DNA from: Actinomyces sp. oral taxon 448 str. F0400
Lineage (GTDB): Bacteria; Actinomycetota; Actinomycetes; Actinomycetales; Actinomycetaceae
Assembly: GCF_000220835.1 (NCBI RefSeq)
Contig: NZ_GL985606.1
Coordinates: 1,747,861-1,811,860, forward strand
Length of the DNA stretch: 64,000 bases
Direction: 5' to 3'
Positions 18,657-22,881 of the stretch are shown piece after piece. The position numbers and the translations under genes were made by a program. Under the pieces are notes generated by a model. The model was not told the DNA's origin, did no database searches, and saw only the letters and a program-made list of their open reading frames with translations. Numbering within the stretch: the first letter of the stretch is position 1; each line of letters begins with the position of its first letter.

Positions 18657-19859
18657 ATGACAGACGACTCTCTGCCCCTGACAGGAGCGTCCTACCAGAT
18701 GCTCCAAGCCCCGACCCCGTTATGGCAACGGCAGACGGTGGTGTCCGACATGCAGGATCCCGAAGCATGGGTCCTGTCCTCCAGGGCGGGCTCGATCCAG
18801 CCCGACACGAGCACTTACGCACGTGGGACGCAATCGCTGGCGTTCAGCACCACCGGCGACCCCTCCCGCCCGACCTTCGCGGATCTCGCTCTGCCGGGCG
18901 CCGATATGACCGACTCCCAGTGGGACCTCTGGCTTCGAGCCGAGGATTATCGTCAGATCGACGGGGTCTGGCTCGAACTCGGTGAGGACGACGACAACTA
19001 CATCCGCCTCGACGCCACCCCGGACGTGCGCACTCTGCGCACCGGTACGTGGTGCCGAGTGACCGTCAACCGCGCCAGCACACGCAGCGTCACCGGACGC
19101 CCCTCGCTCGCCCGCATCACCCGCGTGCGGGTACGCGTCAACCCGGCCGCCCGGTCGGTCGCGAGCCGGGTCTGGCTCGGCTACGTGGGGCTCATCCCCA
19201 CCACGGACTCCGGCGTCGTGTCGGTCGCCTTCGACGACGGCTACAACAGCGACTACGACACGGCACGTGTGATCATGCAGCGTCATGGCATCCCCACCGG
19301 TACGTCCTACATCATCGCGGACAAGGTCGGTAAGCCCGGTCGAATGACTCTGGACCAGCTGGTCGAGATGCGTGATATCCACAACTGGGAGATCGCCGCT
19401 CACGCGTCAACCGACCTCACCACGCTCGATGAGGCAGGGGTGCGCAGTGAGTTCACGACGATCCGCTCCTTTCTCATCGATCACGGTTACCGTGCGTCGG
19501 CCAACCATTTCGCCCTGCCCATGGGGCGCTACAACGAGCTCGTCTTGCGTGTGGCCCGCGACTACTTTGACTCGGTGCGCACCATCGACGTCGCCCAGGA
19601 GACCGTTACCCCCGGCGACCCCTTCAGGCTGCGCGTTTTCTACTGCGGCAGCTACACCACTGAGATCCAGGTCGCGCGGGCCCTGGCCCAGTGCAAGGAG
19701 TACGCCTCCTGGATGCACATGGTCTTCCACCGTGTCGACGCCACTCCCGATGGCGCGCCCGAGTCCGTCAGCGCGGACAACTTCGAACGCTTCATGGGCC
19801 ACCTGGCCGACTCCGGTCTGCCCGTGAAGAAGATCTCCGAAATCATACGCGGAGACTGA
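18657..19859 (+). CDS. NodB-type polysaccharide deacetylase with N-terminal beta-rich domain
   Basis: A 400-residue protein. Residues about 25-185 form a beta-rich, carbohydrate-binding-like region; residues about 186-400 are a NodB-homology deacetylase. Motif 1 is AFDDG (Asp193-Asp194) and motif 3 resembles FALPMGRYN. Motif 2 reads HASTD (His249...Asp253), so the second metal-ligand His of HxxxH is Asp. No signal peptide is seen, which is odd for an enzyme of exported polymer. It opens the operon with a UDP-glucose dehydrogenase and a hyaluronan-synthase-like gene, so an amino-sugar polymer or precursor is the likely substrate. Confidence 0.78.
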   Translation: MTDDSLPLTGASYQMLQAPTPLWQRQTVVSDMQDPEAWVLSSRAGSIQPDTSTYARGTQSLAFSTTGDPSRPTFADLALPGADMTDSQWDLWLRAEDYRQIDGVWLELGEDDDNYIRLDATPDVRTLRTGTWCRVTVNRASTRSVTGRPSLARITRVRVRVNPAARSVASRVWLGYVGLIPTTDSGVVSVAFDDGYNSDYDTARVIMQRHGIPTGTSYIIADKVGKPGRMTLDQLVEMRDIHNWEIAAHASTDLTTLDEAGVRSEFTTIRSFLIDHGYRASANHFALPMGRYNELVLRVARDYFDSVRTIDVAQETVTPGDPFRLRVFYCGSYTTEIQVARALAQCKEYASWMHMVFHRVDATPDGAPESVSADNFERFMGHLADSGLPVKKISEIIRGD

Positions 19860-19950
19860 GCCCCGCGGGTCCGACCGTCCCGTCTTTTTTCCCACTCTCC
19901 CATTCCTCGGCCTTCCCTGACACTCCCTGACATCGAATGGATTGAACTGC

Positions 19951-21273
19951 ATGAACATCACTGTCATTGGTTGCGGATACCTCGGCGCCGTCCACGCCTC
20001 GGCCATGGCCGAGCTCGGCCACCGCGTCGTGGGCGTCGACGTCGATCCGGACAAGGTCGCGGCTCTGTCCGAGGGACGGCCTCCGTTCCACGAGCCGGGT
20101 TTCACCGAGATCCTGCAACGGAACATTGGCAGTGGACGACTGACCTTCACCACCGACTTCGCGACCATCGGCGGCGCCCAGGTGCACTTCATCACCGTAG
20201 GCACCCCGCAGGGGCCAAGCGGGGCGGCGGACCTCACCTATGTCCATGCCGCCATCGAGGCGATGCTGCCTCACCTGGGTCGGTGCACCGACGGCGCCGA
20301 GGTGGTCGCAGGCAAGTCGACGGTTCCCGTCGGCACGGCCGCGCGCCTGGAGCCCGTCATCGCCTCCACCGGGGCTCTCCTGGTGTGGAATCCCGAGTTC
20401 CTGCGGGAGGGATTCGCCGTCGAGGACACCCTGCACCCCGATCGCATGGTCTACGGGCTGCCGGGGGAGCCGGATGGCGCCGAGCGGGCTCGCGCCGTAC
20501 TGGACGAGCTCTACGCCCCTATCCTGGCCGAAGGCATTCCACGTCTGCTCATGGACTACCCTACGGCTGAGCTGGTCAAGATCAGCGCGAACGCCTTCCT
20601 CGCCACGAAGATCTCCTTCATCAACGCCATGGCGAGCATCTGCGACGCGGCGGGCGGTGACGTCACGTCGCTAGCCCGGGCCATCGGCATGGACACCCGT
20701 ATCGGGCACCGTTTCCTGCGCGCCGGGATCGGCTTCGGTGGCGGCTGCCTGCCCAAGGATATACGAGCCTTCCAGGCCCGGGCTGAGGAGCTCGGCGTCG
20801 GCGAGGCGCTGGAATTCCTGGCCGAAGTCGATCAGATCAACGAGGAGACCCGCCACCACGCCCTGGTCAAGGCCCGCAGCATGCTGGGCGGGTCCCTGAA
20901 CCGGGCGCGCGTGGCGGTGCTGGGCGCTGCGTTCAAGCCCGATAGCGACGACATGCGGTGCTCGCCGGGCCTGGCCATCGCCTCCGAACTGGTCGATGAG
21001 GGCGCTCAGGTCGTCGTCACAGACCCCGCCGCCGCCCCGATCCTCGCCCGCGACGTCGACCTGCCCTACGACGTCGCCGACGACCTCGAGGATGCGCTCA
21101 CAGCGGCCGACCTCATTGTCCTGGCGACGGAGTGGACCCAGTACACCCATTGCGACCCCGTCTGGGCGGCCACACTGGTTAACGGACGCAACATCGTCGA
21201 TGGCCGCAACGCTCTGAATCCGAAGGCCTGGCGCGAGGCGGGCTTCACCTACGCTGCGATCGGCAGGCAGTGA
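19951..21273 (+). CDS. ugd: UDP-glucose 6-dehydrogenase
   Basis: A 440-residue UDP-glucose/GDP-mannose dehydrogenase. It has the N-terminal NAD motif GCGYLG (residues 7-12), the central FLREGFAVEDTLHPDR signature, and the catalytic-loop GFGGGCLPKD with nucleophile near Cys266. A C-terminal UDP-binding domain starts near VAVLGAAFKPDSDDMR. It oxidises UDP-glucose to UDP-glucuronate in two NAD-dependent steps. Its place directly before the synthase mirrors hasB beside hasA in streptococci, so it probably supplies UDP-GlcA for that polymer. ATG 19951 is preferred to an upstream TTG. Confidence 0.93.
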   Translation: MNITVIGCGYLGAVHASAMAELGHRVVGVDVDPDKVAALSEGRPPFHEPGFTEILQRNIGSGRLTFTTDFATIGGAQVHFITVGTPQGPSGAADLTYVHAAIEAMLPHLGRCTDGAEVVAGKSTVPVGTAARLEPVIASTGALLVWNPEFLREGFAVEDTLHPDRMVYGLPGEPDGAERARAVLDELYAPILAEGIPRLLMDYPTAELVKISANAFLATKISFINAMASICDAAGGDVTSLARAIGMDTRIGHRFLRAGIGFGGGCLPKDIRAFQARAEELGVGEALEFLAEVDQINEETRHHALVKARSMLGGSLNRARVAVLGAAFKPDSDDMRCSPGLAIASELVDEGAQVVVTDPAAAPILARDVDLPYDVADDLEDALTAADLIVLATEWTQYTHCDPVWAATLVNGRNIVDGRNALNPKAWREAGFTYAAIGRQ

Positions 21274-21366
21274 CTCGCCCAAAGCCCACTGACGTGGGCA
21301 CCGGCCGGTCCGTTTCCACGTGCTCCCACCCGGCAGCGCCCGCTCTCACTCCCTGAAAGCCGCGAT

Positions 21367-22881
21367 ATGTCTTGGTCATTCGGACTCTTCGTTGTCCTTG
21401 TCTGCTTCCTCATCGTCCTCGCCTGCCTCGCGGTCAAGGTCTTCTTCAAGCCCGGCCTCGCCCTCACAACGGTACGGGTCCGTCGCGCCAGAGCTCGTCG
21501 ATTGACCACGACCCGGACGCCCGTGGCCGGTCGCGAGGAGGCACGGCGCGCCGCGCTGGCCACCGGGCTGCCTAGGGCTCTCGCGGGCACAACCGGCCTT
21601 TCGCCCGCCGTCCTCGTCACCTTCGGTCTGGCCGGATGGCTGTACTGGCGCATCCTCGTCAGCCACAGGCACGCCCTGGATACCTGGCTCGTGTGGACTT
21701 TCAACGTCGTCTTCATCATCGTCGCCGCTCAACTCGTCCTCGCCTGTTTCGAGGGACGCATGATCGGGCAGCGTGACGACCACCGCATTGCCGTGCTTAT
21801 CCCGCTGTACAACGAGGACCCCGACGTCGTGCGTCGAATGCTCAGGGCGCTGCTGCACCAGAGCACCCCGCCGGCTGAGATCCATGTCGTCGATGACGGG
21901 TCGAGCCAGGGCGCCTACCCCGAACAGCGCGACTGGTTCCTCCGGGACGCAGCGGTTGCCGGTATTTACGCCACCTGGCAGCGGACTCGCAACCGGGGCA
22001 AGCGTCACGCCCAGAGCCAAGCTTTTCAGCAGATCCGTGATGCGGACCTGTTCGTGACCGTCGACTCTGACTCCATGCTCGATTCCGAGGCTCTCCACGA
22101 GATCGTGCAGCCTTTCAGCGACCCGAGGGTCATGTCGGTCGCCGGCATCATCCTGGCCATCAACAACAAGGAGAACCTGCTGGCCCGTGTCACCGACATG
22201 ATCTTCGTGGGTCAGCAGCTCATCGACCGGTCCTCGATGTCGCGGCTCGGCTCGGTGCTGGTCAACTCTGGCGGTCTAGCCGCCTACCGGTACCAGGTGC
22301 TGGCGGGGAACATCGATACGTACATGAGCGAGAGCTATCTGGGTCGGCACGTGGAATTCTCCGACGATTCCATGCTCACCCTCTTCGCCCTGCTGAGCGG
22401 CAGGACCGTCCAGCAGCCGTCGGCCTTCGCCTTCGCGTGGATGCCCGACCGCTGGAGTCATCACTACCGTCAGCAGGTGCGCTGGTTCCGCGGTTCCTTC
22501 ATCCGCGGTCTGTGGCGCATTCGCTTCCTGCCGGTCGCCTCCTGGGGGTGGTGGCGGCAGGCCACCGGGTGGATGCAGATGTGGGTGGTGACATCAGTCT
22601 TCTTCTACCTGGTTATCTGGCGTCCGCTCGCCACTGAGCACGGCATCCCCATCGCAGTGGTCCTCCTTCCGCTTCTCATCGGACTCGCGCAGAACTCCCG
22701 GTACGTCGGTGTATGGCGCTCGGACACCAGCGACCGCGAACGCCACGTCTGTCTCCTCCTGTCCCCGCTGGCGACGGTGTGGACAGCGGTGATCCTGCGT
22801 CCACTGCGTTTCTGGGGCATGGTGACCAGTGCCAAGATGGGATGGAACACCCGCCAGCAGGTCGAGGTCACTACCCAGTGA
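21367..22881 (+). CDS. Class I hyaluronan-synthase-like processive glycosyltransferase (GT2)
   Basis: A 504-residue membrane GT2 enzyme. Two N-terminal helices (about 5-27 and 80-127) precede the catalytic domain and several C-terminal helices follow. Motifs in order: AVLIPLYNED, VDDGSS (175-180), NRGKRHAQ (209-216), VDSDS (232-236), LVNSGGLAAYR, SDDSMLT (332-338) and QQVRW (369-373). They line up with the same blocks in streptococcal HasA, and the match continues to the C-terminus (LLSP...LRPL...W.TR..V). It should link UDP-GlcA and an amino sugar and extrude the chain. Exact polymer is inferred. A long Arg-rich insert (38-62) separates the first helices. Confidence 0.85.
   Translation: MSWSFGLFVVLVCFLIVLACLAVKVFFKPGLALTTVRVRRARARRLTTTRTPVAGREEARRAALATGLPRALAGTTGLSPAVLVTFGLAGWLYWRILVSHRHALDTWLVWTFNVVFIIVAAQLVLACFEGRMIGQRDDHRIAVLIPLYNEDPDVVRRMLRALLHQSTPPAEIHVVDDGSSQGAYPEQRDWFLRDAAVAGIYATWQRTRNRGKRHAQSQAFQQIRDADLFVTVDSDSMLDSEALHEIVQPFSDPRVMSVAGIILAINNKENLLARVTDMIFVGQQLIDRSSMSRLGSVLVNSGGLAAYRYQVLAGNIDTYMSESYLGRHVEFSDDSMLTLFALLSGRTVQQPSAFAFAWMPDRWSHHYRQQVRWFRGSFIRGLWRIRFLPVASWGWWRQATGWMQMWVVTSVFFYLVIWRPLATEHGIPIAVVLLPLLIGLAQNSRYVGVWRSDTSDRERHVCLLLSPLATVWTAVILRPLRFWGMVTSAKMGWNTRQQVEVTTQ

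Follow-up and report, generated by a model that had tools for sequence, protein, structure and literature searches.

Three same-strand (+) open reading frames in the 64,000-nucleotide stretch of Actinomyces sp. oral taxon 448 DNA analyzed here (the window) may constitute an Actinomyces synthase-dependent exopolysaccharide (capsule or slime) operon. Our tentative reading is that a divergent synthase makes a polymer of the HexNAc/glucuronate (GlcA) type. In sequence trees, this synthase is a third branch beside the hyaluronan synthase (HAS) and NodC clades, within an actinobacterial and phage lineage. The original prediction had read the same genes as a hyaluronan-type operon with a class I HAS-like synthase; its observations were mostly right, but its interpretation was over-read.

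Operon architecture

The gene order is a CBM-like and CE4 (NodB-type) gene, a UDP-glucose 6-dehydrogenase (UGDH) gene, and a GT2 synthase gene, in a genome of 2.83 Mb (12 contigs). This agrees with the deacetylase-UGDH-synthase order originally described for positions 18657 to 22881. The features discussed below are as follows.

18657..19859, +, putative polysaccharide deacetylase with CBM-like and CE4 (NodB-fold) domains, 400 aa (PF01522, 1.8e-9; predicted fold; orthologues)
18729..19199, +, predicted N-terminal CBM-like beta-sandwich, about residues 25-181 (Foldseek/VIA: CBM11, Z about 14.5; CBM30)
19230..19241, +, CE4 motif 1, FDDG (D193, D194), from the sequence; invariant in 12 orthologues
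19401..19415, +, CE4 motif 2, HASTD, with the first metal His kept and the second absent (H249 and D253 invariant in 12 orthologues)
19951..21273, +, UGDH, 440 aa (TIGR03026, 1.3e-114; top PDB match the UGDH 2y0e, 2.8e-90)
20746..20748, +, UGDH catalytic Cys266 in GFGGGCLPKD, from the sequence
21367..22881, +, processive membrane GT2 polysaccharide synthase, 504 aa (PF00535/PF13641; PDB HAS, 1e-14; hydropathy; trees)
22261..22263, +, V299 in place of the acceptor-site Cys of HAS and NodC (cvHAS C267); V invariant in alignment A2
22360..22371, +, SDDS (332-335) versus HAS GDDR and NodC GEDR, with the catalytic Asp kept; F-SDDS invariant in alignment A2
22471..22485, +, QQVRW (369-373; QxxRW), followed by FRGSFIRG versus x-x-S-x-x-R in HAS and NodC, from the alignment

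The intergenic gaps are 91 bp (CE4-UGDH) and 93 bp (UGDH-GT2), and the ATG of the CE4 gene at 18657 is preceded by a good Shine-Dalgarno sequence (GAGGAG). A promoter scan detected none, and all terminator-like sites lie on the opposite strand.

Phylogenetic placement of the synthase

The closest named relatives of the synthase are all from Actinomyces (A. johnsonii, A. naeslundii, A. oris, Actinomyces sp. ZJ308, and oral taxon 170; 73-76% identity), and within a 151-genome sample of the window's family, no other genus carried it at E ≤ 1e-30. In two trees, one of 53 rows and one of 32, the Actinomyces synthases formed one clade inside an actinobacterial lineage to which Streptomyces phage proteins also belong. 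Other clades of both trees contained NodC, HAS, and a Lactococcus plasmid HasA-like protein. Constraining the Actinomyces proteins, cvHAS, and XlHAS1 into one clade in the 32-row tree lowered lnL by 131 and was rejected (p-AU 4e-72), which leaves the class I HAS-like assignment unsupported. The original prediction had named a tree position away from HAS as a refutation of its own reading, and this applies in part. The Actinomyces clade itself occupies such a position, whereas a deeper order with the whole lineage sister to HAS is compatible with the 32-row tree (p 0.12), as is its union with NodC (p-AU 0.09). The synthase does not appear to be a NodC or chitin-type enzyme either. It forms a separate clade in the tree, its TIGR04242 score is below the cutoff, and it retains 7/53 NodC-only columns.

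The FSDDS acceptor site is limited to the inner clade. Two outer members (L013 and L014) retain GDDR; thus, FSDDS is likely derived.

Streptomyces phage Kromp gp79 (L038:7830-9341) and the IMG/VR (pro)phage proteins L107-L118 are processive GT2s that are 44-48% identical to the Actinomyces synthase and share its FSDDS acceptor motif and V-N-S-G. They differ in that QxxRW reads MYxRW and no UGDH or CE4 gene lies nearby. Such phage enzymes perhaps alter the host surface. Kromp gp79, the synthase, and the CE4 protein all lacked a PHROGs family.

Linkage of UGDH to the synthase

The dehydrogenase, a three-domain NDP-sugar dehydrogenase with a GFGGxC motif and UGDHs as its nearest structures, is predicted to act on UDP-glucose. 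The catalytic Cys and the strong family match uphold the earlier claim that a UGDH directly precedes the synthase. It is the sole UGDH match in the window genome at E ≤ 1e-20.

Across the genus, 17/49 Actinomyces genomes carry the synthase (one copy degenerate). A UGDH occurs somewhere in the genome of all synthase carriers (17/17) versus 22/32 noncarriers (Fisher p 0.009, kinship not corrected). The full trio is present in the window genome, G473, G477, and G480, as well as at locus L002. The commonest arrangement is deacetylase plus GT2 without UGDH (9/17 synthase genomes), so that an operonic UGDH is missing in most relatives, which we count against a HexNAc/GlcA polymer. In G358, UGDH directly precedes two tandem synthases and the deacetylase is absent; the second tandem open reading frame (L128:6933-12477) has a long Pro/Ala-rich C-terminal extension. 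Neither UGDH nor deacetylase was found close to the synthase in G445 and G449. The synthase and deacetylase of G447 (L089/L090) are degenerate remnants, which points to loss under some conditions.

The trio UGDHs of the four genomes form one clade (support 100/100), and in the GT2 tree a seven-genome group with deacetylase plus GT2 is nested within the trio genomes (path supports 96/99, 100/100, and 99/95). UGDH was therefore lost from the operon in these seven genomes. G408 and G476, which also lack an operonic UGDH, branch outside the trio group. Thus, the trio adjacency is kept by vertical inheritance, with UGDH later dropped from some Actinomyces operons. In L007 and G408, the operon occupies the same chromosomal place as in the window, without UGDH and with HAD and S4 genes downstream; L007 additionally shares the downstream OpcA and G6PD genes with the window. 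None of these four flanking genes was seen in the naeslundii/oris-group loci read. G396 encodes its other UGDH apart from the operon, in a Wzy-type EPS cluster that includes EpsG, flippases, and a pyruvyl transferase; thus, the presence of a UGDH need not serve the synthase. These patterns fit a UGDH supply to the operon that is real but optional, in which any need for UDP-GlcA could be met in trans. At the loci read from the wider synthase clade (phages and Streptomyces), no UGDH was found nearby, which, like the G396 arrangement, speaks against a HexNAc/GlcA polymer.

The same data bear on the possibility that the operon makes a chitin/chitosan-like or other HexNAc homopolymer with a NodB-type modifier, as in nodBC or icaAB, the UGDH being a hitchhiker or serving another polymer. 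The best curated family match of the synthase is to NodC, most synthase genomes of the genus pair it with the deacetylase only, and homologues outside Actinomyces lack an adjoining UGDH. We nevertheless consider a homopolymer unlikely: vertical inheritance has maintained the operonic UGDH in the trio lineages, no second copy was found in the window genome, the G358 UGDH adjoins the synthase even where the deacetylase is absent, and few NodC-only columns are retained.

Features of the CE4 protein

The PF01522 match of the CE4 protein (38 bits versus a cutoff of 23.1) and its predicted fold bear out the earlier report of a NodB deacetylase gene in the operon. In the predicted model (pLDDT 70), a CBM-like sandwich is followed by a CE4 domain. 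The VIA-align rows used were those with CE4 or CBM folds. Haloferax virus HFTV1 supplies the closest structure, its turret head protein (8qpg; Z 24.1, rmsd 6.3), which has the same CBM-like and CE4 fold over 342 aligned residues but is a virion protein with 17% identity. Next (Z 13-16) come enzymes of the CE4 family together with one of its pseudoenzymes, BA3943, and the fold matches include acetylxylan esterase 7fbw and Xyl-CE4 7ax7.

Orthologues in Actinomyces are 65-71% identical. Motif 2 reads H-A-x-x-D, with the second metal His absent in 12/12 aligned orthologues (Asp or a deletion), versus HTMTHPDL in NodB; the protein thus lacks the Asp-His-His metal triad with an HxxxH motif 2. The predicted cell location also differs within this one orthologous group. 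Orthologues from A. oris, A. naeslundii, and A. johnsonii (among L001-L006 and L039) begin with a twin-arginine (Tat) type signal (RRRNFL..GGLA), whereas no signal peptide was found in the N terminus of the proteins from the window, L007, and G408. The missing second metal His and the missing signal peptide weaken the earlier proposal of a de-N-acetylated polymer and the case for extracellular de-N-acetylation, more so in the window strain.

CE4 enzymes include O-deacetylases, among them the 7fbw and 7ax7 matches, and the CBM11/30-like module and remodeled synthase acceptor site would also suit another single- or two-sugar polymer, such as polyglucuronate or a glucose/GlcA polymer from which the CE4 protein removes O-acetyl groups. 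Nearly all HAS, NodC, and PgaC relatives use UDP-GlcNAc, which makes such a product distinctly unlikely.

Residue conservation in the synthase

Hydropathy indicates N-terminal TM segments, a GT2 domain at about residues 139-376, and C-terminal TM segments; the Pfam matches (PF00535 and PF13641) are to processive GT2s. Among PDB sequences, hyaluronan synthases match best (1e-14), and the best NCBIfam match is NodC (TIGR04242, 3e-38), at 131.8 bits versus a cutoff of 550 bits. Identity is 21-22% to solved HAS (cvHAS 7sp7 and XlHAS1 8smm) and 24-25% to NodC. The catalytic core is intact (D233-S-D235, D333-D334, QQVRW, and GKR).

All synthase peptides quoted in the original prediction are present in the sequence, but a block-by-block match to HasA does not identify a HAS. 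VDDGS, GKR, DSD, QQxRW, and a C-terminal W-x-(T/S)-R also occur in NodC and in many other members of the wider family and were rejected as HAS-specific motifs. The same applies to the features of membership present here (DxD, QxxRW, a membrane-embedded GT2, and C-terminal W-x-T-R); the C-terminal WNTR is the counterpart of HAS WGTR and of NodC W-(L/G)-S-R. Two further blocks said to match HasA, SGGLAAYR and SDDSMLT, in fact depart from the HAS consensus (C-x-x-G-P and GDDR). In these comparisons, cvHAS, XlHAS1, and the Lactococcus plasmid HasA-like protein took the place of streptococcal HasA, by reputation a class I HAS. Four HAS-type proteins have 70 invariant columns; 34 of these are kept in the Actinomyces proteins, versus 46 in NodC. 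The Actinomyces proteins retain only 2/14 HAS-only columns, along with 28 of the 46 columns invariant in both HAS and NodC. A scan of viral contigs retrieved no HAS.

Five residues common to the compared HAS and NodC proteins are replaced in the synthase (cvHAS C267, G300, R303, S345, and R348; R303 belongs to GDDR). In HAS structures, these positions surround the acceptor sugar and the priming loop. C267, R303, S345, and R348, with their XlHAS1 equivalents, have acceptor/priming-site roles (PMC11750622, PMC12987647). The GlcA-carboxylate-contacting cvHAS residues K177 and R341 are kept (K212 and R372); NodC also has both, so they are uninformative on HAS identity. The AlphaFold model (pLDDT 54) is too poor for comparison of substrate sites. 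Placement on a separate third branch, together with loss of the sugar-gripping residues common to HAS and NodC, leaves the label "hyaluronan" unjustified, and, given the remodeled acceptor site of this lineage, the product probably differs from hyaluronan in linkage or repeat. A highly diverged class I HAS making authentic hyaluronan, perhaps in a partly de-N-acetylated form, is thus very unlikely, despite the hasB-hasA-like pairing, the HAS matches in the PDB, and the retained carboxylate-pocket Lys and Arg, in view of the rejected clade, the lost acceptor/priming-site residues, and the few HAS-only columns kept.

Comparison with known systems

Class I HAS encoded with hasB shares with the window the GT2 core, DxD, catalytic Asp, QxxRW, C-terminal W-x-T-R, and a UGDH neighbor. 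It differs in the low identity, clade, and acceptor-site residues given above, and the window has an extra CE4 gene and no hasC. Relative to NodB and NodC, the similarity lies in the best NCBIfam match and in a NodB-fold protein encoded directly upstream in most Actinomyces. The low identity, unretained NodC-only columns, and replaced acceptor Cys and GEDR Arg set the synthase apart, as do a UGDH and a CE4 protein with a CBM and without the second His.

Plasmids of Lactococcus and Enterococcus faecium (L041:1153-7188, L138, L145, and L146) carry a comparable UGDH and HasA-like pair, in cassettes flanked by IS elements. Their synthase differs in having HAS-type CCSGP, GDDR, and RWNKSxxRE, and their UGDH is of the short HasB type. 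On Lactococcus pUCCL632D (L041), a CE4 gene of opposite orientation is separated from the pair by about 2 kb that include an IS6 transposase, and a Paenibacillus cellulositrophicus plasmid (L042:409-8075) has a CE4-UGDH-GT2-CE4-GH18 cluster. The proteins of these Paenibacillus and Lactococcus sets of UGDH, HAS/NodC-type synthase, and CE4 are unlike those of the window. The recurrence of the set (three cases, no systematic count) favors a functional link of GlcA supply, synthase, and deacetylation. A further actinobacterial GT2 (L139:8806-10038), which shares 52% identity with the Lactococcus HasA-like protein, sits beside a GGDEF-EAL gene; UGDH was not found nearby.

Proposed pathway

The grouping of a processive synthase gene with genes for a UGDH and a NodB-type protein reasonably suggests a polymer of amino sugar and glucuronate, a possibility that the original prediction had also raised and that stands. 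For such a HexNAc/GlcA polymer, UGDH would oxidize UDP-glucose to UDP-glucuronate, as its strong family match and catalytic Cys suggest. From its family and topology, the GT2 protein would polymerize UDP-sugars, most likely UDP-GlcNAc and UDP-GlcA, and, like HAS and NodC, export the product through a channel that the same protein forms in the membrane. The CBM-CE4 protein, whose active site is atypical, would bind the chain and may remove N- or O-acetyl groups from it. Literature searches on Actinomyces polysaccharide or slime composition returned nothing usable (no biochemical or compositional datum), and searches on naturally occurring hyaluronan in a de-N-acetylated or zwitterionic form and on phage-encoded HAS in bacteria returned nothing relevant.

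Significance

The Actinomyces naeslundii/oris group comprises early plaque colonizers. The literature searched yielded no genes for making a glucuronate polymer by a synthase-dependent route in this group. It is conceivable, if doubtful, that the FSDDS enzymes are a third HAS/NodC lineage that arose independently of HAS, that their product in oral Actinomyces is a GlcA/amino-sugar polymer not described before, and that Streptomyces phages carrying the synthase alone share this lineage. If a GlcA/HexNAc copolymer is made, glycosaminoglycan-like chains would have arisen here separately, and the synthase would offer a natural test of the acceptor-site residues that fix HAS specificity. The phage synthase homologues would be a bacterial counterpart to the chlorovirus HAS.
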